From Allobacillus saliphilus (GTDB lineage: Bacteria; Bacillota; Bacilli; Bacillales; Alkalibacillaceae): 64,000 bases of DNA. Positions 699 to 35,148 of the stretch are shown piece by piece. A model generated the notes under the pieces. The model did not search any database, was not told where the DNA came from, and saw only the letters and a list, made by a program, of their open reading frames with translations. The translations under genes and the position numbers were made by a program. Position 1 is the first letter of the stretch; every line of letters begins with the position of its first letter. The DNA lies in NCBI RefSeq assembly GCF_018138385.1, contig NZ_JAGSIE010000012.1, positions 1-64,000 on the forward strand. Direction: 5' to 3'.

Positions 699-1355
699 GT
701 GAAGAAGAAAATATTATTAGGTACAGTAGCCGTCATTGTAACTGCAGGAGGAGCTTTTGGGGTATCTGCATTGAGTGATCAAACCCTTGATAAAAGTTAT
801 GGAAAAGACGGTATCGAAACAGAGGTGGACACTCATATGGAAATAGATACAAATAAATTAGTCGGTGCCCATGAACTAGAAGATATCGTACTTAGCAAAG
901 TTCAAGGAAACATTGAAGAAATTGAACTGGAAGATGAAAATGGCAAGCTTTTATTCAAAGTAGAAATAGAGAGCAAAGAAAATAGAGACGCTGAAGTATA
1001 TGTAGATGCATATACCGGAGAAGTCATCGAAGTTGAATATGACGATCGTGACGACGAACAAGAAACAGAGAAAGAGGATGTTAACGAGTCTGATCAAAAC
1101 GAAAACGAGAAAAACTCAGCTAACCATAAACAAGTAAAGTCATCCGAACAAACATCAACAAATGAAATCATTAGTCGTGAGAAAGCAATTGACATTGCAA
1201 AAGAAGTTCATAACGGAACCGTTCAAGAGGCTGAACTAGATGAAGACGATGGACAACAAATTTTTGAAATTGAGTTTGAAGATGATGAAGAAGAAGTAGA
1301 AGTCGAAATTGATGCTAAGACAGGAAAAGTGTTGAATGTTGAATATGATGATTAA
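699..1355 (+). CDS. Exported acidic protein with two PepSY domains
   Basis: This 218-aa protein has a signal/anchor segment at residues 3-25 and two copies of a PepSY-type fold, at about 55-115 and 155-217. Each copy ends in a similar motif (AYTGEVIEVEYDD and AKTGKVLNVEYDD). The linker of about 40 residues is rich in Asp, Glu, Asn and Lys. PepSY domains are thought to bind or inhibit proteases outside the membrane. The GTG start is set by AAAGGAGG at 684-691. The very high acidic content is typical of exported proteins of salt-tolerant bacilli. It is monocistronic, with a terminator just downstream. The family call is good, but the partner protease is unknown. Confidence 0.85.
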   Translation: MKKKILLGTVAVIVTAGGAFGVSALSDQTLDKSYGKDGIETEVDTHMEIDTNKLVGAHELEDIVLSKVQGNIEEIELEDENGKLLFKVEIESKENRDAEVYVDAYTGEVIEVEYDDRDDEQETEKEDVNESDQNENEKNSANHKQVKSSEQTSTNEIISREKAIDIAKEVHNGTVQEAELDEDDGQQIFEIEFEDDEEEVEVEIDAKTGKVLNVEYDD

Positions 1356-1363
1356 TCGGCATG

Positions 1364-1392
1364 AACAGCCAGGCATTTGCCTGGCTGTTTTT
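1364..1392 (+). terminator. Rho-independent terminator
   Basis: A 12-bp stem (1364-1375 with 1378-1389) with a tiny loop and a T tract follows the PepSY gene. Confidence 0.8.
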
Positions 1393-1443
1393 AAAATATA
1401 TAAGTAGATTATGCTATATTAATAAAAGAGAGTCCTATAAAAG

Positions 1444-1881
1444 GTGGTGCTTATAATTAGCGATAAGGTTATAAAATTTGTGAGAGATTTTCTATGGATG
1501 AATAATAAAAACTTAGATAACATTTCATTGAATAATTTAGAGAAAAAAATGAACGAAAAAGGCTTTGATGATGATTTCATAAAAGAGATTATTCAGGCAT
1601 TTAAGCAAAGGATCGATAAACAAGGTGAAAAACAATTTAAAAATTGGCTTGTAAACCTTCATTTTAATTGTCCTGATGAATTTCAAAATGAAGAAAAGGC
1701 TGTACAAGTCTATGACAAATACTGTTCATGGATAGAAAGTGAAGTAAATAATTTAGAGGATGAAACAAAGTTATCTTGGGAAAGACAAACAGAAGATATC
1801 AAGGAACTAGACGAAAAAGCTAGAAAAACACAATTAGTTATAAGACACAGATTATCTGAAATTGTTTTAGATTTAAATTAG
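1444..1881 (+). CDS. Hypothetical cytoplasmic protein
   Basis: The product is a charged soluble protein of about 140-145 aa, predicted to be mostly helical, with no membrane segment and no motif I recognise. The start is uncertain. Tandem GTG codons at 1444 and 1447 open the longest frame, but they overlap the best ribosome site (AAAGGTGG, 1440-1447). The codon that site would serve is ATT at 1456, a rare start. The gene is monocistronic, with a hairpin terminator at 1912-1936. Confidence 0.6.
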   Translation: MVLIISDKVIKFVRDFLWMNNKNLDNISLNNLEKKMNEKGFDDDFIKEIIQAFKQRIDKQGEKQFKNWLVNLHFNCPDEFQNEEKAVQVYDKYCSWIESEVNNLEDETKLSWERQTEDIKELDEKARKTQLVIRHRLSEIVLDLN

Positions 1882-1911
1882 TCCACTATGAATTTAAAAT
1901 CACACGTATAG

Positions 1912-1936
1912 AAACCTCTTGAAGAGGTTTTTTTTA
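1912..1936 (+). terminator. Rho-independent terminator
   Basis: A 9-bp stem (1912-1920 with 1921-1929) with almost no loop is followed by eight T. Confidence 0.65.
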
Positions 1937-2155
1937 TGCACTTTTATTCTTTTAGTTGTTGTAAAATCTTAGAAAGGTGATTGAAATAATCACTTCTCTA
2001 CGGAATCATTATAAACACTTTTCGCATAAGCGCACACTTCTTAACCTCCATTTTAATAATTCTCCACCCATTTTTCGACAAATATACGATTCTATAAACA
2101 GATACTCAAGCAGATTTCATATATTTTCATAATCTATTAATGAAGGAGGGATTAT

Positions 2156-2845
2156 ATGACTAAATGGATTCAAGACGCTGGTCATGGTGGAAGTGATACT
2201 GGAGCCTTCCATGATGGTATAGCGGAAAAGAATTGGACACTTGAAGCAGCTCTATATGTCAATCAAAGACTGAATGAGTTAGGAGTTTCTAGTACTGTCA
2301 CACGAAAATCAGATCAGGATTTATCAAGGGACAAACGTACCGCTACAGTATCAAAATATGAAAAAGCAATATCTCACCATTTTAACGCTGGTGGAGGATC
2401 TGGAGCAGAATTAATCCACAGCATTTATGCGGATGGGTCTTTCGAAAAAAACCTACGGCAGAAATTTGAAGAAGCAGGGTATCCTTTTAGACGAATTTTC
2501 ACCAAAACGTATCCAGGTAATCGTGAGCGAGACTATTATTATATGAATCGCGAAACCGGTAGTGCCAGAGTAACAATTGTAGAATATGGCTTCTTAGATG
2601 GACCCAACTTGCATAGATTAAAAGACAAGAACTATCGCGAAGGACTTTACGAATGCGTCGTTCAAGCTATCTGTGCAGAAGAAGGCGTTCCTTATAGACA
2701 AGCATCCCAGGAACCCACGGATGAGGGAACAACATTATATCGTGTTGTCACAGGTTCCTTTCATAAAAGGGAGAATGCTGAGAAAAGAATCGAACAGCTC
2801 AAGAAAGCAGGGTACGAAGCATTCATCGATATCCTTCGCAAGTAA
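2156..2845 (+). CDS. N-acetylmuramoyl-L-alanine amidase with SPOR domain
   Basis: This is a 229-aa peptidoglycan amidase of the Amidase_3 (zinc) family. Residues 1-175 form the catalytic domain: DAGHGG near residue 7 supplies the first zinc His, AEKNW near 22 the zinc Glu, the SHHFNAGG region a further His, and VEYGFLDG the catalytic Glu. Residues 190-229 form a SPOR-type repeat that binds glycan (VTGSFHKRENAEKRIEQLKKAGYEAF). It resembles CwlC-type mother-cell lysins and phage endolysins. There is no signal peptide, so release would need a holin or cell lysis, and a holin gene follows 13 bases downstream. AAGGAGGG precedes the ATG. Confidence 0.9.
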   Translation: MTKWIQDAGHGGSDTGAFHDGIAEKNWTLEAALYVNQRLNELGVSSTVTRKSDQDLSRDKRTATVSKYEKAISHHFNAGGGSGAELIHSIYADGSFEKNLRQKFEEAGYPFRRIFTKTYPGNRERDYYYMNRETGSARVTIVEYGFLDGPNLHRLKDKNYREGLYECVVQAICAEEGVPYRQASQEPTDEGTTLYRVVTGSFHKRENAEKRIEQLKKAGYEAFIDILRK

Positions 2846-2858
2846 AGGGGGAATAACA

Positions 2859-3107
2859 TTGGCGATGCTAGATTTTATTATGGAAGAGGCGTATATTTTA
2901 ATTCCCGTATTAATCATCATCGGTCGAATTTTAAAAATATCAACGAATCTCCCATCACGTTTTATCCCAATCACATTACTTGGACTGAGCTTTTTGTTAA
3001 CAGGTGTTATGTTAGGACTATCATTCGAGACATTTATCCAATCAGTCTTGATAGCTGGTGCTGCAGTATTTAGCCATCAACTATTTAAGCAAATGAGAAA
3101 TCGCTAA
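2859..3107 (+). CDS. Holin (Hol44/superfamily V-like)
   Basis: This 82-aa membrane protein has three hydrophobic segments and the layout of phage Hol44-type holins. It has an N-terminal acidic MEEAY segment followed by IPVLIIIGRILK. The C-terminus carries the recognisable block SVLIAGAAVFSHQLFKQ. Holins form membrane holes that let an endolysin reach the wall, and the gene directly upstream encodes such an amidase without a signal peptide. The TTG start at 2859 is preferred because AAAGGGGG (2844-2851) lies 7 bases upstream. The longer open frame overlaps the amidase gene and is not credible. No other phage genes are near. Confidence 0.8.
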   Translation: MAMLDFIMEEAYILIPVLIIIGRILKISTNLPSRFIPITLLGLSFLLTGVMLGLSFETFIQSVLIAGAAVFSHQLFKQMRNR

Positions 3108-3109
3108 TT

Positions 3110-3148
3110 GATGGCTGGCTTCCTTTACAGGTTGCCAGCCATTTTTTA
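3110..3148. terminator. Bidirectional terminator between holin and DUF3021 genes
   Basis: A 9-bp stem (3111-3119 with 3134-3142) is followed by T6 on the plus strand. It reaches the stop codon of the convergent DUF3021 gene. Confidence 0.7.
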
Positions 3149-3553
3149 CGTTCGTTTGATTTGTTCATTCAAATCCTTTTCGACTTTCGAAAAGTAACTT
3201 TGCAAAACAAACCAAAAAACAGCGTAAACAAACACAAAACCACCTAAACCAATCGCTATCGGAATGAGACCAACGGGTACCCAACCAAGAAGGAGAGCAA
3301 GTGGAAGCCAAACGGTCACTGACAAGAAGAAATGAATTATTGTTTGTTTTAATGGGCTCCACCGCTCGTTTTCAAAAATCAACGAAGCAGAACCAAAGTA
3401 AATGCCCATAATCAAAGCACCGAACATTCCTTTCCAGATCTCGAACACATTTGCTTCTGTTTTAGTGAATAAAAGCACAGTGATAAAGATAAAGGTAAAT
3501 AAAGCTGCGAATGCAATTCCACTAATACTTCTTTTGAATGCTTCTGCAATCAT
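3146..3553 (-). CDS. DUF3021 membrane protein, partner of LytTR regulator
   Basis: This 135-aa protein has four predicted membrane helices (about 8-30, 40-60, 74-94, 97-118) and a charged cytoplasmic tail. It matches the DUF3021 family as I know it (ISGIAFAALFTF... start, IYFGSASLIFENERWS in the middle). In related LytTR regulatory systems the membrane protein holds back a co-transcribed LytTR regulator. The ATG overlaps the stop of the LytTR gene by four bases, so translation is coupled. That coupling supports a functional pair. The signal sensed is unknown. Confidence 0.85.
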   Translation of the reverse strand: MIAEAFKRSISGIAFAALFTFIFITVLLFTKTEANVFEIWKGMFGALIMGIYFGSASLIFENERWSPLKQTIIHFFLSVTVWLPLALLLGWVPVGLIPIAIGLGGFVFVYAVFWFVLQSYFSKVEKDLNEQIKRT

Positions 3554-28165: not shown

Positions 28166-28471
28166 ATGAAAAATGATGGGGAGTTTTTTGTTTACATGCT
28201 TCGTTGTAAAGACGGATCTCTATATACGGGTTATACCGTTGACTTGCAAAATAGGTTGAAATTACACCAAGTCGGTAAAGCTTCTAAATATACTCGCTCA
28301 AGGGGACCTGTTGAATTAGTTTATTTAGAACAGCTTGCCACAAAGAGTGAGGCAATGAAAAAAGAAGCTAATGTGAAAAAACTGAAAAAGAATGAAAAAG
28401 AAGACTTGATTGCTTCATTAACGAATCAGCTTGTGAATGAAAAAGGAAGATTTACCACTCTTAAAGATTGA
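28166..28471 (+). CDS. GIY-YIG domain protein (YazA/UPF0213-like)
   Basis: This 101-aa protein is a single GIY-YIG nuclease domain. FFVYMLRCKDGSLYTGYTVDLQNRL at 7-31 carries the paired Tyr motif and catalytic Arg, and YLEQLATKSEAMKKEANVKKLKK supplies the Glu. Small stand-alone members such as YazA have unknown cellular role. The AGCS transporter gene starts 97 bases downstream with its own ribosome site. Confidence 0.88.
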   Translation: MKNDGEFFVYMLRCKDGSLYTGYTVDLQNRLKLHQVGKASKYTRSRGPVELVYLEQLATKSEAMKKEANVKKLKKNEKEDLIASLTNQLVNEKGRFTTLKD

Positions 28472-28568
28472 TCGGATGAAAATAGTTACTTATCAACTAA
28501 AATTATCGGTTTGTCCGTGTATGAAGTGGGGAACTGGTTACAGAATATGCTTGAAAGGAGAATATCAC

Positions 28569-30005
28569 TTGAATGCAGTAGAAGACGTACTTAATGATAT
28601 TATTGGTTTTGGAAACACAATTTTTTGGGATTATATTTTAATCTACTTACTTATAGGTGCGGGTCTTTATTTCACCCTAGGAACTAAATTTGTTCAGTTC
28701 CGCTTATTTGGCAATATGTTTAAGGTTATTACGGAGGAGGCCGTTGAACAAAGTGGACGGCGGGGAATTAACGCTTTCCAAGCTTTCAGTATCACGATCG
28801 CTTCCAGGGTCGGGACAGGTAACCTGGCAGGTGTTGCACTTGCGGTTGCCATCGGTGGTCCAGGGGCTGTTTTTTGGATGTGGATGGTTGCGTTAGTCGG
28901 AATGGCAACAGCATTCATTGAAAGTACACTGGCACAAGCATATAAAATTCCTGATAAAGACGGATTTCGTGGAGGGCCAGCTTATTATATGCAAATGGCT
29001 CTTGGTCAGAGATGGATGGGTGTATTATTTTCCATCTTAATCATTATCACTTTCGGATTAATCTTTAACTCAGTACAAGCGAATACAATTTCGCAAGCTG
29101 TTGATCAAGCCTTTAACATTGATCCAATGTGGACAGGATTCGTTCTCGTTGCGTTAGCTGGTATAGTTATTTTCGGAGGAATAAAACGGATTGCAACCGT
29201 TGCAGGGGCAATTGTTCCGTTCATGGCATTTATTTATATACTGGTTGCCCTATACGTAGTGATCACGAACATAACAGAAGTACCTGCCGTATTCTCACTA
29301 ATTTTTAAAGATGCATTTGGATTAGAGCAAGCCTTTGGTGGTGGTGCCGGAGCTGCAATCATGTATGGAATTCGTAGAGGTCTATTCTCTAACGAAGCAG
29401 GTATGGGTAGTGCACCAAACGCAGCGGCAACAGTTGGTGTCAGCCATCCTGCAAAGCAAGGTTTAGTTCAATCTTTAGCTGTATTTTTCGATACAATTGT
29501 TATTTGTAGTTTTACGGCATTTATCGTTATCCTTTACGATAATTTCTATGGCGCTTCAGAAGATGGTATTCAATTGACACAGGTAGCACTTGATGCTCAT
29601 ATCGGGGCATTCGGTTCCATTTTCTTGGCAATCATCATCTTTTTCTTTGCCTTCAGTTCATTAGTTGGGAACTACTATTATGGTGAAACGAATATCGCAT
29701 TTCTTAAAAACAATCCGATCATGTTAAATATTTATCGTGTCATCGTTTTAGGAATGATCATGTTTGGTTCCTTGGCTTCTGTACAAATCGTATGGAATAT
29801 GGCTGACTTGTTTATGGCGTTAATGGCAGTTGTTAACTTAATCGCTATTTTATTATTGGGAAGAGTTGCTTTCCGAATCTTACAAGATTATGTTGATCAG
29901 AAGAAAGAAGGAATCGATCCACAATTCCACTACTCTCGTATCAAAGGATTAAAGAATGTAGAGTGGTGGGGAATGCAAGATGAAAAAAATCAACCTCCAA
30001 AATAG
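28569..30005 (+). CDS. Sodium:alanine symporter family (AGCS) amino-acid carrier
   Basis: This 478-aa transporter moves alanine or glycine with Na+. It has about eleven helices and the AGCS signatures ASRVGTGNLAGVALAVAIGGPGA near 80 and YGIRRGLFSNEAGMGSAPNAAAT near 265. It starts at TTG 28569, eight bases after AAAGGAG; the frame is open further upstream but without a ribosome site. The stop is directly followed by a striking array of terminator-like hairpins, 30044-30328. Confidence 0.92.
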   Translation: MNAVEDVLNDIIGFGNTIFWDYILIYLLIGAGLYFTLGTKFVQFRLFGNMFKVITEEAVEQSGRRGINAFQAFSITIASRVGTGNLAGVALAVAIGGPGAVFWMWMVALVGMATAFIESTLAQAYKIPDKDGFRGGPAYYMQMALGQRWMGVLFSILIIITFGLIFNSVQANTISQAVDQAFNIDPMWTGFVLVALAGIVIFGGIKRIATVAGAIVPFMAFIYILVALYVVITNITEVPAVFSLIFKDAFGLEQAFGGGAGAAIMYGIRRGLFSNEAGMGSAPNAAATVGVSHPAKQGLVQSLAVFFDTIVICSFTAFIVILYDNFYGASEDGIQLTQVALDAHIGAFGSIFLAIIIFFFAFSSLVGNYYYGETNIAFLKNNPIMLNIYRVIVLGMIMFGSLASVQIVWNMADLFMALMAVVNLIAILLLGRVAFRILQDYVDQKKEGIDPQFHYSRIKGLKNVEWWGMQDEKNQPPK

Positions 30006-30043
30006 GTCTCAACGCCGTTTTCGGCAATTGAGCAATCCATTAG

Positions 30044-30328
30044 GTCATCGAGAACAAATCTCGATGACCTTTTCATTTCCTGGGCAGCCCATTCGGTCGT
30101 CGAGAGTGTGTCTCGATGACTTTTTGAACATTCAAGCATCACATTTTGTCGTCGAGAATGTGTCTCGATGACCTTTTCACCACCCAAGCAGTGCATTTTG
30201 TCTTTGAGAACGCATCTCGATGACCTTTTCACCATCCAAGCAGTGCATTTTGTCGTTGAGAACGCATCTCGAAGACCTTTTCACCATCCAAGCAGTACAT
30301 TTTGTCGTCGAGAATGTATCTCGATGAC
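30044..30328. repeat. Six-unit 52-bp tandem array of terminator-like hairpins
   Basis: Units begin at 30044, 30096, 30148, 30200, 30252 and 30304, an exact 52-bp period. Each begins with a 25-nt hairpin (10-bp arms; first one GTCATCGAGA / TCTCGATGAC, extended to 11 bp) followed by CTTTT or similar. The other 27 bp (about CTTTTCACCATCCAAGCAGT plus seven bases) are also conserved between units, so this is not a CRISPR. The first unit would be a perfect terminator for the AGCS gene. A weak seventh copy may overlap the end of that gene. Confidence 0.85.
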
Positions 30329-30422
30329 ATTTTCGTCAAAGAAAGTTAACGGTAACTCCTTTATCTTAAAAATGATAGATCGAATTTAATGACACATATA
30401 TCGGTTCCATTCAAAGTTTACA

Positions 30423-30460
30423 TTAAAAAATCAGCCGAGCTTTATGCAGTTCGGCTGATT
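30423..30460 (-). terminator. Terminator of HxlR-family gene
   Basis: A perfect 10-bp stem (30429-30438 with 30451-30460) is followed by TTTTTT on the minus strand. Confidence 0.88.
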
Positions 30461-30469
30461 AGTTTAATT

Positions 30470-30775
30470 TTACAACCATTCTTCTGCCCACTCTTGTGTA
30501 CAACGAATGACTGGTTCCATTGCTTTTCCTTTATCTGTTAACGTATATTCGACACGTACAGGTGTTTCGTCATAAACTTTACGCTGAACGATTCCTTCTT
30601 TTTCTAGTTCTTTCAAGCGTTCAGACAATACTCTACCACTTATGCCAATCGAGGATTCGAATTCGCAAAAGCGTTTTGGGCTCTCAAGGAGTTGATAAAT
30701 GATTAATGTAACCCAACGTTTCCCCATCAATGTTAATGCTTTTTCAACTTTATCGCATACGGCTGAATCTGCCAT
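30470..30775 (-). CDS. HxlR-family (YodB-like) redox/stress repressor
   Basis: This 101-aa winged-helix regulator of the HxlR family carries the typical WVTLIIYQLLESPKRFCEFE, ISGRVLSERLKELEKEGIVQR and PVRVEYTLTDKG segments. A Cys near the N-terminus (residue 7, SAVCDKVEKAL) sits where YodB and CatR sense quinones and disulfide stress, suggesting thiol-based sensing. The start MADSAV follows AGAGGTGA; 24 upstream codons are not used. It is divergent from a YceI-type gene, 134 bp away, which is its likely target. Confidence 0.87.
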   Translation of the reverse strand: MADSAVCDKVEKALTLMGKRWVTLIIYQLLESPKRFCEFESSIGISGRVLSERLKELEKEGIVQRKVYDETPVRVEYTLTDKGKAMEPVIRCTQEWAEEWL

Positions 30776-30789
30776 GAAAATCACCTCTT

Positions 30790-30885
30790 TTTTATAGTAT
30801 ACAAAATATAAGTAAAAAAATAAACTAAACAAACTTACTTGACGCAAGTGTATATCTAAAGTATACTAACTTACATAAAGTAATT
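30790..30885. promoter_or_regulatory. Divergent regulatory region, YceI promoter and candidate repressor sites
   Basis: TTGACG (30839-30844), a 17-bp spacer and TATACT (30862-30867) form the YceI-side promoter. The octamer-like AGTATAC occurs near the promoter of both genes (30797-30803 and 30860-30866). An ACTT-N5-AAGT palindrome overlaps the -35 (30837-30849). These are candidate operators for the HxlR protein, by inference. Confidence 0.55.
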
Positions 30886-30909
30886 AAATAATTTTTAGGA
30901 GGAATAAAT

Positions 30910-31437
30910 ATGTCAAACATTTTATTAGATCAACCGCATAGTTCCATTAACTTTCAGGTGAAACACATGATGGTATCAAAAGCGAAAGGTGAATTCAGAG
31001 ACTTCGATATTCAAGTTGATGGTGATATTAACGACTTAGAAAATATAAGTATTGAAGCAGTCATTCAAACAGATTCAATTGATACGAGTCAGGCTGATCG
31101 TGATGCACATTTAAAATCAGAAGATTTCTTTGATGCAGAAACTTATCCGACGATTAAATTTGTAAGTAAATCCATGAAAAAAGTAAGTGGAGATACGTAC
31201 GAGCTAACTGGTGATGTGACAATGAAAGGTGTTACAAACGAAGAAACTTTCACTGTAAACTTCAACGGTCAAGGAAAAGAACCAATGCAAGGTAATACAA
31301 TTGCTGGTTTCGATTTCACTGGTACGATCAACCGTGAAGCTTATGGCTTGAGCTGGAACGCAGCACTTGAAACAGGTGGCGTACTAGTTGGTAAAGATGT
31401 TAAAGTAAATGGCGAAATTGAGTTAATCATCAAATAA
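30910..31437 (+). CDS. YceI family protein
   Basis: This 175-aa protein has the YceI lipocalin-like barrel, which binds polyisoprenoid or similar lipophilic molecules. Typical segments are SSINFQVKHMMVSKAKGEF near 12, DAHLKSEDFFDAETYPTIKF near 62, and the final GKDVKVNGEIELI. It has no signal peptide, so it is cytoplasmic here, unlike E. coli YceI. Its promoter faces an HxlR-type regulator, suggesting induction by electrophile or quinone stress. AGGAGG precedes the ATG. Confidence 0.9.
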   Translation: MSNILLDQPHSSINFQVKHMMVSKAKGEFRDFDIQVDGDINDLENISIEAVIQTDSIDTSQADRDAHLKSEDFFDAETYPTIKFVSKSMKKVSGDTYELTGDVTMKGVTNEETFTVNFNGQGKEPMQGNTIAGFDFTGTINREAYGLSWNAALETGGVLVGKDVKVNGEIELIIK

Positions 31438-31450
31438 ACGAAGATAAAAC

Positions 31451-31494
31451 AAATCCCAGATTGAGAAAAGTTATTTTCCAATCTGGGTTTTTTT
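31451..31494. terminator. Bidirectional terminator
   Basis: A 9-bp stem (31455-31463 with 31479-31487) followed by T7 lies between YceI and the convergent phosphodiesterase gene. Confidence 0.8.
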
Positions 31495-31524
31495 ATATGT
31501 CATTCTTTTCATTCAATCAAAGAG

Positions 31525-32454
31525 CTAACGTAATCCCTTTTCTTCCAATATCTCAATTAATAAATCCGGCCGGTCTGTGATGATTCCATCTACACCTGCA
31601 TCAACCATTTGCCTCATCGTTAATTCATCATTAATCGTCCAATAATGAATATCCATTCCAAGTCTTCTAGCTCCATCCATCATTTCTTTTGTAAAGAAAT
31701 TGAAGTATTTATTTGCTCGTGGAAGTTGGATTACATCACCTGTTGGTTGAAATAGGTTACGTAAAAAGAATTTATGTGCAATCGTAAAGTTAAATACTAC
31801 TTCTCGGCCAGTTCCAAGAGCTACCTGCCCTTTAGCTAAGGCATCAAACCGATTAATGATCTTTTGATTGAACGACGAAACCATCACTTGATCATGCATT
31901 TCATATTCTTCAATAATAGCCCAAAGCTTTTCAACAATTTCTTGGTGAACTTCAGCAGGGTTTGTATGTTTGACCTCAAGCATATAATTCATCTCCGGAT
32001 AGCGTTCAAATACTTCGCGAAGCGTCGGTTTGTAAACACCGATCCCTTTGAATGCATACTCTCCCTCTGTATTTTGAAAATGATAACCAGCATCTAACGC
32101 TAAAAATTCTTCTAATGTATAATCTGCAACATATCCTGTGCCATCTGTCGTTCTGTCAACTGTAGGATCATGAGCGAGAACGATTTCACCATCTTTTGTG
32201 ATGTGCAAGTCGACTTCAATCATATCGACACCCATTTCAGAAGACATTTTAATAGCGGTCATCGTATTGCCAGGAGCGATTTGATCACCTGCTCTGTGAG
32301 CAATAACCATTGGCCCTCCACGTTCATCATTTTTAAAAAAAGGATGCTGATCAATCGGTTTTACGGGTAAATAATTTAATGCAATAAAAACGACTACAAC
32401 ACCCAATAGTATGAGCGAAAATTTATTTAATCTGATTTTCGTCTGCTGTTTCAT
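31525..32454 (-). CDS. Membrane-anchored glycerophosphodiester phosphodiesterase
   Basis: This 309-aa enzyme splits glycerophosphodiesters to glycerol-3-phosphate and alcohol. An N-terminal anchor (about 9-28) is followed by the GDPD barrel, with IAHRAGD near 50, MIEVDLHITKDGEIVLAHDPTVDRTTDG near 75-102 (metal Glu/Asp and catalytic His) and MLEVKH near 150. The C-terminal VDGIITDRPD block is typical. It acts outside the membrane. The ATG at 32454 follows AAAGGTGG by 8 bases. It is a single gene. Confidence 0.9.
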   Translation of the reverse strand: MKQQTKIRLNKFSLILLGVVVVFIALNYLPVKPIDQHPFFKNDERGGPMVIAHRAGDQIAPGNTMTAIKMSSEMGVDMIEVDLHITKDGEIVLAHDPTVDRTTDGTGYVADYTLEEFLALDAGYHFQNTEGEYAFKGIGVYKPTLREVFERYPEMNYMLEVKHTNPAEVHQEIVEKLWAIIEEYEMHDQVMVSSFNQKIINRFDALAKGQVALGTGREVVFNFTIAHKFFLRNLFQPTGDVIQLPRANKYFNFFTKEMMDGARRLGMDIHYWTINDELTMRQMVDAGVDGIITDRPDLLIEILEEKGLR

Positions 32455-32659
32455 CGTCAGTTCCACCTTTAGGTAATCAAAAAACTATACTTTATCCATA
32501 CCTTTTAATGAAGGTCATATAACATCAAGATGATAACTTGTGAAATTGTTAACGTTTTGAAATAAAAGTTGTAGAAATATCTCTATAAAGAATTCTTTGC
32601 TGTTCTCGTGTAAATTATATCAGTTTTCTTTATAATAGAAATTAGAGGAGGTTATTGTT

Positions 32660-34036
32660 ATGCAGAATGAAGTAATTGAATATTTAAAGAAACATCGTGA
32701 AAAGCATTTAAGTGAACTGAAGGATTTTTTATCTATTCAAAGTATAAGTGCGTTGTCATCTCATAATGAAGATGTCAAAAAGGCAGCAGAATGGGTGAAG
32801 AAAGAATTAGGAAACATCGGCTTTGCTCACGCTGAAATTATGTCTACTGATGGCCATCCGGTTGTTTATGGTGAGTACATAAGCGATGTGAACGCTCCAA
32901 CCGTACTTGTATATGGACATTATGATGTTCAACCTGTCGACCCTGTAGAATTATGGGATTCAGAACCATTTGACGCGACTATTCGTGATGATAAAATTTA
33001 TGCCCGCGGTGCTACAGATGACAAAGGACAAGTATTCATGCATTTAAAGGTCATGGAAGCGATCTTGAAAACATCTGATAAAGCCCCTGTGAACTTCAAG
33101 GTACTGATTGAAGGAGAAGAAGAAGTCGGCAGTCCGAACTTACCGAAATTTGCCCAAGAGAAAAAGGATCTGCTCGAAGCGGATTTAATTGTCGTATCTG
33201 ATTCCGCACTCGTGGAAAGAGGTAAACCGACGATTACGTATGGCTTAAGAGGTCTAGCAGGTATTCAAATCGATGTGACAGGTGCGAAAAGTGACTTGCA
33301 CTCAGGTGAATACGGTGGAGGCGTCGTCAATCCAATTCATGCACTTGTAAAAATTGTCGACAGCTTCCGAGATGAAAAAAATCGAATCCAAGTCGAAGGT
33401 TTCTATGACCGAGTTCCAGAATTATCTCAGGAAGAACGGGATGCACTTGCGTCTGTTCCATTTGATGAAGAAAAATTGAAAAATGAATTGAATGTTCCTG
33501 AGTTAGATGGTGAAGAAGGTTATAGCTATGTCGAGCGGACTTCTGTTCGACCGACACTTGAGGTAAACGGGATTTATGGTGGTTTCCAAGGTGAAGGCAT
33601 CAAAACCGTTTTGCCGAATAAAGCTACCGCAAAAGTTACCTGTCGTCTAGTCCCTGACCAAGATCCAGATGAGATTGTCGAGTTATTGGCTAATCACGTA
33701 GAAAAACATACACCGAATGGAGTTCATGTAGACATTAAACCATTCGATAAAGGAAAGCCGTATGTCACACCATTTGATCATCCGGTTATCAAAATGGCAG
33801 CAGAAGCTTATGAGAAAGTGTATCAAGCTGAAACGGCTTATATTCGAGGTGGCGGTTCAATTCCAATCGTAGCTGAGTTAGATGAAATTTTAAACGTACC
33901 CGTTGTGTTAATGGGCTTCGGCTTACCAGATGAGAACTTACATGCTCCAAATGAGCATTTAAACCTTGAGAATTTCGATAAAGGTATGGAGACATTGGCC
34001 CATTATTATTATATGTTAAACGATTATAAAGGTTAA
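32660..34036 (+). CDS. M20-family dipeptidase
   Basis: This 458-aa zinc peptidase belongs to the M20 family of carnosinase-like dipeptidases. Metal ligands are seen in VYGHYDVQP near 94 and ARGATDDKGQ near 115, the catalytic Glu in EGEEEVGS near 152 and the metal Asp in DSALVERGKP. The dimerisation domain is at about 200-350, and HAPNEHLNLENF near 437 holds the last His. It cuts dipeptides or removes acyl groups from amino acids. AGAGGAGG precedes the ATG. A terminator and the 52-bp repeat array follow. Confidence 0.9.
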   Translation: MQNEVIEYLKKHREKHLSELKDFLSIQSISALSSHNEDVKKAAEWVKKELGNIGFAHAEIMSTDGHPVVYGEYISDVNAPTVLVYGHYDVQPVDPVELWDSEPFDATIRDDKIYARGATDDKGQVFMHLKVMEAILKTSDKAPVNFKVLIEGEEEVGSPNLPKFAQEKKDLLEADLIVVSDSALVERGKPTITYGLRGLAGIQIDVTGAKSDLHSGEYGGGVVNPIHALVKIVDSFRDEKNRIQVEGFYDRVPELSQEERDALASVPFDEEKLKNELNVPELDGEEGYSYVERTSVRPTLEVNGIYGGFQGEGIKTVLPNKATAKVTCRLVPDQDPDEIVELLANHVEKHTPNGVHVDIKPFDKGKPYVTPFDHPVIKMAAEAYEKVYQAETAYIRGGGSIPIVAELDEILNVPVVLMGFGLPDENLHAPNEHLNLENFDKGMETLAHYYYMLNDYKG

Positions 34037-34052
34037 TATTTAGCTCTAATGA

Positions 34053-34088
34053 AAACCGTGCGGCAAATTTGATGCTGTGCGGTTTTTT
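34053..34088 (+). terminator. Rho-independent terminator
   Basis: An 11-bp stem containing three wobble pairs (34055-34065 with 34073-34083) and T6 follow the M20 peptidase gene. Confidence 0.7.
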
Positions 34089-34134
34089 AATTTTTGAGAA
34101 GAGCGAGTAACTAAAAGTAAGCTCTAAGTATGCC

Positions 34135-34342
34135 TATACCCCCGAGCGGGCAGAAAATAAAGCTAAAAAGTCTTATAGGAGCGCTCTATACCCCCGAACG
34201 ACCAAAAAATAAAGCTGAAAAGTCTTATAGGAGCACTCTATACCCCCGAGCGGGCAGAAAATAAAGCTAAAAAGTCCTATAGGAGCGTCCTATACTCCCG
34301 AGTGACCAGAAAAATAAACTGAACAGTCTTATACATGCAATC
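34135..34342. repeat. Four-unit 52-bp degenerate tandem array
   Basis: Units start at 34135, 34187, 34239 and 34291, an exact 52-bp period. The conserved parts are TATACCCCCGAGCGGGCAGA, AATAAAGCTAAAAAGTC and TATAGGAGCGCTC. The junction TATAGGAGCGCTCTATA is a near-perfect palindrome. A faint fifth copy begins at 34343. It lies between the M20 peptidase and the second CAP-domain gene (tandem orientation). I see no coding potential or promoter match in it. Confidence 0.8.
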
Positions 34343-34437
34343 TGGCCCCTGTGCTAATGATATGTCTTCAATAATTCAGAGGCATATTTTTTTTGCGGTC
34401 ACAAAAACTAACGACATCTGAAGGAGGGAGTATATTA

Positions 34438-35148
34438 GTGAAAAAGGTAACAGTAATTTTGTTCGCAATTATTCTTTTTTGTGTCGGTTGTGGACAAGAA
34501 GAGGAAAGTATTGATTTTAAATTTGAACCAGATCCGGTTAGCTTTGGAGGAAATGGTGACGAAGTAAGACCACGACAAAATCGGTGGGCGAATGATGGCG
34601 ATTCAAACTCGATTCAAAATCCTGAATATTCGATAGGAACGAAGAAACGCGAACGTACGAACGGAAGGAACCGACGTGGATTTGAATCAGAAACCGATCC
34701 GCGTCCAGGTATTGGTTCACCTGAAAAGCGAGACGGAGATTCCATTAAAACGCAATCACAGCTAGATGATTTGCTGGAAGAAGTTGTTGAGTTAACGAAC
34801 CGTGAAAGAGAAGTAAATGGATTACCGACTTTGAAAATCGACCCCGAATTACAAGATGTTGCCCAAGAGAAGTCTGCTGATATGGCTGATCTAAATTATT
34901 TTAGTCATGAATCGCCGACCTATGGTTCACCTTTTGATATGTTAAATGAATTTGGGATTGATTACGAAGTGGCAGCTGAAAATATTGCAGCGGGATTTTT
35001 TGATCCTGAAGATGTCGTGAATGGTTGGATGAAAAGTGAAGGCCATCGAGAAAATATCTTAAATCAAAATGTTACCCACATAGGGGTCGGCTTTGAAGAG
35101 GGTGGAGAAATGGGGACTTATTGGACGCAATTGTTCATTGCGAAATAA
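34438..35148 (+). CDS. CAP/SCP-domain protein, probable lipoprotein
   Basis: This 236-aa protein is a paralogue of the CAP protein at 18773. An N-terminal signal peptide ends in CVGC (a slightly unusual lipobox). A charged Asn/Arg-rich linker (about 25-105) follows, then the CAP domain with LTNREREVNGLPTL, YFSHESPTYGSPF, AAENIAAGF and HRENILNQNVTHIGVGF. The GTG at 34438 is chosen because AGGAGGGAG lies 7 bases upstream; the longer frame has no ribosome site. Confidence 0.87.
   Translation: MKKVTVILFAIILFCVGCGQEEESIDFKFEPDPVSFGGNGDEVRPRQNRWANDGDSNSIQNPEYSIGTKKRERTNGRNRRGFESETDPRPGIGSPEKRDGDSIKTQSQLDDLLEEVVELTNREREVNGLPTLKIDPELQDVAQEKSADMADLNYFSHESPTYGSPFDMLNEFGIDYEVAAENIAAGFFDPEDVVNGWMKSEGHRENILNQNVTHIGVGFEEGGEMGTYWTQLFIAK

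Follow-up and report, generated by a model that had tools for sequence, protein, structure and literature searches.

The alsT–hxlR Locus and Its Array

The window analysed here is the whole 64,000-nt stretch of the Allobacillus saliphilus contig. On its plus strand it carries an alsT-like Na+/alanine symporter gene at 28566–30005 (start at 28437 in the ORF listing), identified by a match to Na_Ala_symp (PF01235, E 9.6e-165), which confirms what the initial, sequence-only reading had proposed for the gene ahead of the array. The nearest named relatives of this one protein are from Alkalibacillus (73%), Filobacillus (72%) and Gracilibacillus (70%), and the host, judged on that single protein, is placed in the Bacillus group of Firmicutes. 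Convergent with alsT is a gene for an HxlR-type HTH regulator (hxlR, 30470–30775, minus strand; PF01638, E 1.1e-29), which has an ordinary hairpin terminator at 30429–30460, with the T-run TTTTTAAT on the minus strand.

Between the alsT stop codon and hxlR lies a non-coding array of six dyad (hairpin) units at 30044–30334, with its T-tract strand on the plus strand, found both by TRF (period 52, 5.6 copies, 82% matches, 1% indels) and by a covariance model. The hairpin-to-hairpin steps of the covariance-model matches are 52, 52, 52, 52 and 52 exactly, as expected from the six hairpins at 52-bp steps described earlier. The first hairpin (U1, 30042–30070) was also found by a terminator scan; it has a perfect 12-bp stem followed by TTTC (TTTTC with the last paired T) and a stability of −19.0 kcal/mol. 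All hairpins lie on the plus strand. Those of U2 (30096–30120, −16.7 kcal/mol), U3 (30148–30172, −14.5 kcal/mol) and U6 (30304–30328, −16.1 kcal/mol) each contain one G.T wobble, and U4 (30200–30224, −8.8 kcal/mol) and U5 (30252–30276, −8.4 kcal/mol) each have a decayed arm, with a T.T mismatch and a T.G wobble in U4, and a G.A mismatch and a T.G wobble in U5. The wobbles and the decay of some copies that had been pointed out are therefore present, but the compensatory changes are not: no pair is fully compensated inside the alsT array, and two-sided stem changes are seen between arrays. Similarly, the CTTTT said to be in each unit follows five of the six hairpins, U6 having ATTTT instead. A decayed seventh half-unit, consisting of a 3' arm (TCTCAAC) and spacer, was recognized by eye at about 30005–30043 (plus strand), where it abuts the alsT stop codon; it is in the array register and has the length of the matching part of a unit.

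When a 343-nt stretch spanning the array was folded as RNA, z-scores of −7.8 (plus strand) and −6.0 (minus strand) were obtained and none of 100 shuffles folded as well, so folding goes far beyond chance on either strand. A search of Rfam (E ≤ 1) with positions 29900–34500 gave no match besides a trpB motif at 34008–34094, which was rejected as a chance match because its 29.8 bits compare with a gathering score of 59.

A second 52-bp array of the window, a variant with a TATAG stem, lies 4 kb from the first at 34134–34333 (minus strand; TRF and model), between an M20 peptidase gene, which has its own terminator, and a CAP-domain gene. Its orthologue in a sibling species (G001) is near 115131–115384 of contig C56 (in L152), and this species also has two TCGAGA-type units ahead of the terminator of the peptidase gene.

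A Dispersed Family of 52-bp Arrays

The palindrome TCGAGAN{3,7}TCTCGA occurs at 43 sites in the A. saliphilus genome and the reversed control at none. A first covariance model, built from 42 units of arrays in this genome, matched at least 111 units there and at least 48 in G001 (E ≤ 0.01) among the candidates scored, which were the best 150 of 745 and of 669, respectively. Matches were found in 5 of 40 genomes in all, the three beyond these two species having 1, 5 and 2. A second covariance model revealed further arrays in A. saliphilus and G001, and gave matches in two of three genomes. After removal of overlaps, the stretches fetched contained 176 units in 41 arrays, 28 of which are from the A. 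saliphilus genome.

The oriented consensus common to the units is CATTYGGG-TATCGAGA-N5-TCTCGATGAC-ATTTTC. Throughout the modelled family, each unit contains a single AGA-N5-TCT dyad, whose outer stem varies while the flanks are conserved. Within the inner stem, pair 14 is A-T in all 176 units, pair 15 is G-C in 166 and pair 16 is A-T in 145, while in the outer stem pair 12 is CG in 64 units, AT in 60, TG in 34, CA in 11 and TA in 3, and pair 13 is GC in 114 and TA in 60. Nearly all steps between units are 52, the exceptions being 51 (L038, L059 and L060), 49 (L045), 45 (L043) and 104, the last representing a missed unit; the consensus periods of the listed arrays of the two sibling species are also near 52. 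Between sibling species arrays are gained and lost, and they are found in either orientation to genes.

Subirana and Messeguer (2021, PMC8161180) describe 52-nt (51–53) tandem repeats of Bacillus with constant length and variable sequence. The features seen here correspond closely: several arrays per genome, constant unit size, variable sequence and common short signals, in a host of the Bacillus group, and in the alsT array a non-coding position and 5.6 copies, thus at least four repeats. The alsT array almost certainly belongs to this dispersed class of Bacillaceae repeats. The initial reading had known of no described system, a statement that does not hold given the published class, although in the sections of that source consulted the repeats do not appear as terminators.

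At L042, a Mutator-family transposase gene (PF00872) occupies 1317–3240 between two array halves; the sibling species has in their place one 52-bp array that runs without interruption (L051, 8415–8725). Contigs C9, C13, C24, C27, C28, C29, C32, C33, C37, C77, C78, C79 and C80 of the A. saliphilus genome end inside a 52-bp array or no more than a few hundred bases from one. The assembly seems to have been broken by the arrays, so their number and length are likely to be underestimated.

Arrays of similar kind were seen in other hosts. In G019, which belongs to another genus of the host's family, there are at least 21 arrays (L224–L246) of period 51–52, some of them 96–97% homogeneous, with the related dyad GTCATTGAGA-N5-YCTCGATGAC. 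In Cerasibacillus terrae, a 51-bp array of 3.8 copies (L078, 6756–6951) has, by eye, hairpin-like arms and T-runs and precedes a gene resembling a cation efflux protein; it was ruled out as an alsT terminator because an ordinary terminator comes before it. Planococcaceae-type loci near alsT (L081, L082, L083 and L149) carry arrays of about 21 bp, or two helical turns, and repeats of this size are the other constant-length class named in PMC8161180. The alkalitelluris consensus had no match in the three other genomes searched with it.

Constraint on Sequence and Unit Length

Adjacent units (122 pairs) differ least in the stem (0.098 substitutions per site) and flanks (0.152), and most in the spacer (0.277) and loop (0.321). 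Self-alignment of 47 arrays at lag 52 gave 1620 substitutions (16.3%) and 26 lag changes, or 62 substitutions per change. As a control, orthologous intergenic DNA of the window and G001, BLAST-aligned and from the single 64-kb region, had 1413 substituted positions among its 7762 aligned columns, together with 136 gaps of ≤4 nt, or 10.4 substitutions per gap of this size. Per substitution, indels are about six-fold rarer in the arrays than in the orthologous intergenic DNA (odds ratio 6.0, p 7.5e-22). In simulations with eight substitutions per indel, TRF found 394 of 400 arrays and the method measured a ratio of 9.4; since such arrays are still found and their ratio is correctly measured, detection bias is not the cause of the depletion, and unit length is constrained. 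The ratios of two other hosts, each given without an intergenic control of its own, are 58.7 in G019 (411 substitutions and 7 lag changes in 21 arrays) and 28.7 in Metabacillus indicus (861 substitutions and 30 lag changes in 24 of 25 arrays, with 14 of the 30 changes falling in one array).

With B-DNA at about 10.4 bp per turn, a 52-bp unit spans five turns, and half-sites that are 11 bp apart are separated by one helical turn. Selection acts on both the dyad and the length of the unit, as would be expected of phased protein sites on DNA more than of serial terminators. The units may work mainly as DNA, each being a binding site with two half-sites, 11 bp apart, for a putative protein. A repeat of 52 bp, or five turns, would then align the bound proteins on one helix face, and a possible example of such a role is local nucleoid organization. 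Helically phased dyad sites with a function at the DNA level, and with a binding protein that is predicted from the sequence pattern, are a reading we favour only tentatively.

The same arrays could be a neutral or selfish satellite, produced by slippage or unequal exchange at a hairpin-forming unit, copied around the genome and used as a terminator at alsT by chance. Gain and loss between sibling species and the variable unit numbers would follow naturally, as would the distribution of arrays between genes. By type of gap, 45 arrays comprise 12 convergent, 17 codirectional, 4 divergent and 12 contig-end cases, and control gaps comprise 32 convergent, 102 codirectional and 57 divergent (a few orthologous pairs are counted twice, and the gene calls were made in the present analysis). 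Convergent over divergent gaps are enriched for arrays (12:4 vs 32:57, p 0.005), which is expected of a satellite if promoters are spared. The T-tract strand also forms the slightly more stable single-stranded DNA hairpin in 28 of the 41 arrays (the other strand in 10), and this could drive strand-biased expansion. However, neutral copying ought not to favour substitutions over indels, and it is by substitution that the loop and spacer diverge, with indels depleted about six-fold and the stem and flanks conserved. A neutral origin of the whole pattern is thus rather unlikely.

Orientation Relative to Replication and Genes

Within the host's genus, 40 of 51 arrays have their T-tracts on the C-rich strand, a count that leaves out seven arrays whose orientation is unclear and another whose skew is flat. 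When contig-end halves and orthologues are removed, the figure is 33 of 44 (p 0.0013). The halves at contig ends were joined by eye from their unit sequences, L027 and L033 also by a separate comparison. The polarity prediction was fixed ahead of reading a test set of 14 arrays; 8 of 37 arrays in the first set and 3 of 14 in the test set (two-sided p 0.057) had their T-tracts on the G-rich strand, and the alsT array of the window is among these 11 exceptions. Hairpin strength did not differ between the polarity classes. Of the 20 orientable arrays of M. indicus (25 in total), 18 have the published consensus on the G-rich strand, but in G019, the third genus, the query strand is G-rich in only 9 of 20 (21 arrays). 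The replication bias is therefore lineage-specific, and polarity as a general property was dropped. It would have favoured a chromosome-level role for the DNA, and its failure in the third genus is counted against that role.

Strand use also bears on whether the arrays act as RNA, that is, as a structured 3' UTR, a small RNA or a protein sponge made from transcribed arrays. RNA-seq shows that 52-nt arrays are transcribed in B. coagulans (PMC8625621), and the strong folding and the two-sided stem changes between arrays are in keeping with an RNA element. Among arm mispairs at pairs 9–16 of the T-tract strand, G.T exceeds A.C (63 vs 34, array counts). This lean is a hint that the strand pairs with itself as single-stranded RNA or DNA, and it counts against the DNA reading, but it comes largely from pair 9, where G29 is retained whatever its partner: without this pair the counts are 40 and 31, and the direction is reversed at pairs 7 and 16. 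The orientable codirectional arrays of M. indicus are all sense to their genes (13/13), as would suit an RNA role. There is no sense bias in the codirectional gaps of the host's own genus: the T-tract strand is the sense strand in 5 and the antisense strand in 8, and inclusion of the later test set brings these counts to 8 and 11, so the G.T lean falls on a strand that is more often antisense than sense there. In the minimum-energy fold of the whole alsT array stretch, several units pair with one another and not internally, and an RNA would not require a fixed period of 52 nt. Taken together, an RNA element is distinctly unlikely.

A Probable Terminator Role at alsT, and the Wider Family

In G001, the gap between alsT and hxlR contains an ordinary intrinsic terminator and the array is absent. 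The set of alsT loci numbers 17, including that of the window; five of the others gave no score, and of the 11 that were scored, nine have a terminator shortly 3' of the stop codon, two of these loci appearing to be the same sequence. No separate terminator was found in the window between the alsT stop codon and the array. U1, which starts 36 nt past this stop codon, has the makings of an intrinsic terminator, with a stable, G+C-containing stem and a T-run directly next to it, 3' of a gene, and in median hairpin stability the array (−14.9) ranks first among the 41, its best hairpin tying with that of L035. The terminators of G001 and of the other loci, the absence of a native one here, the position and stability of U1 and the top-ranking median hairpin all point to a local exchange of terminator for array. 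At this locus the array probably serves as the terminator, and U1 probably ends the transcript. Under the phased-site reading, the T-tract strand would happen to face the stop codon, the native terminator would have been lost, and units 1–3, mostly unit 1, would now end the transcript. The L035 array of the same genome also stands where G001 has an ordinary terminator; by eye, its first full unit is preceded by a hairpin in the array register that has a loop of 17 nt and a T-run.

Units 1, 2, 3 and 6 are similar to intrinsic (Rho-independent) terminators in having a stem of 10–12 bp and then four or five T, but the arrays are unlike them in being tandem at a fixed period, the family is mostly too weak, and its orientation is not tied to genes. 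The initial reading saw in the array one intrinsic terminator copied six times and kept for near-absolute termination. The part concerning termination is likely to be right for alsT, where the array is sense to the gene, has T-tracts and the family's most stable median hairpin, and stands in place of the native terminator that is present in G001. As an account of what the array is, it fails: the 52-bp dyad family to which the array belongs has dozens of members, and these lie in either orientation, antisense and divergent positions included. A strict terminator scan (at least five T in eight) passed only U1 and U6 of the six alsT units, U4 and U5 being weak and decayed. Most units of the family have a weak stem or a short T-tract: 31 of 176 have at least five T in the 8-nt tail, and hairpin stability has a median of only −6.0 kcal/mol. 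A native terminator was detected by scanning for 8 of 19 genes that face a sense array and for 17 of 24 that face an antisense array (p 0.071), compared with 95 of 153 controls and with 5 of 10 genes facing arrays of unclear orientation, which were left out of the test. That sense arrays lack native terminators is a trend, and it weakens to 9 of 19 (p 0.21) when the long-loop hairpin of L035, missed by the scan, is counted. Termination also needs no exact spacing, and a device of serial terminators is very unlikely. The account we put forward overall, without holding it to be established, is that phased, DNA-level dyad arrays may have been co-opted locally as the terminator of alsT.

Relation to Known Repeats and Significance

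REP/BIME elements with RAYT transposases are dispersed intergenic palindromes that are sometimes clustered. The 52-bp family is likewise dispersed, intergenic and palindromic, but its units are arranged head to tail, in one direction and at a fixed period. The Y1/RAYT transposase family (PF01797) had no match in the A. saliphilus genome and one in G001, and a RAYT/IS200 transposase was rejected as the driver of the arrays since the host's own genome has no match. A CRISPR array was ruled out because neighbouring units diverge by only 27.7% in their spacer columns.

The closest known relatives are the 52-nt repeats of PMC8161180, which resemble the present family in their constant 52-nt unit, in the many short arrays, differing in sequence, that a genome carries, in short signals that also occur reversed within units, and in partial conservation between strains. 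An inverted repeat was found in 20 of the 27 consensuses in its Table 1 (60 shuffles, p ≤ 0.05 each, uncorrected), and two consensuses from B. thermoamylovorans have nearly the same dyad as here; one consensus of this species contains GACGAGA-N5-TCTCGTC, with TTTT four bases on. The same source reports no known function and names nucleoid stabilization and small RNAs as options; an earlier survey by these authors appeared in 2019 (PMC6749651). Compared with the sections of PMC8161180 consulted, the new elements are the dyad per unit relative to shuffles, the conservation profile, the depletion of indels, the empty site occupied by a terminator, and the orientation tests. Among the titles and abstracts searched, none dealt with terminator use or the orientation of 52-nt repeats; the matches included general papers on palindromic and stem-loop repeat families, such as PMC2267715, PMC3733652 and PMC12306157.

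A broader proposal is that 52-nt satellites in general are dyads of two half-sites placed five turns apart, selected for length and aligned by a putative protein on one face of the DNA, oriented in a fixed way relative to replication in some lineages and able to replace terminators; in this full form it is doubtful. Many Bacillaceae are rich in 52-nt repeats, for which the literature consulted gives no function. The depletion of indels, the conserved dyad and flanks and the free spacer make a role testable, by asking which protein binds the dyad and what effect a half-turn change in the spacer would have. The alsT locus, as a natural exchange of a terminator for an array, would be useful for measuring the effect of an array on transcription.
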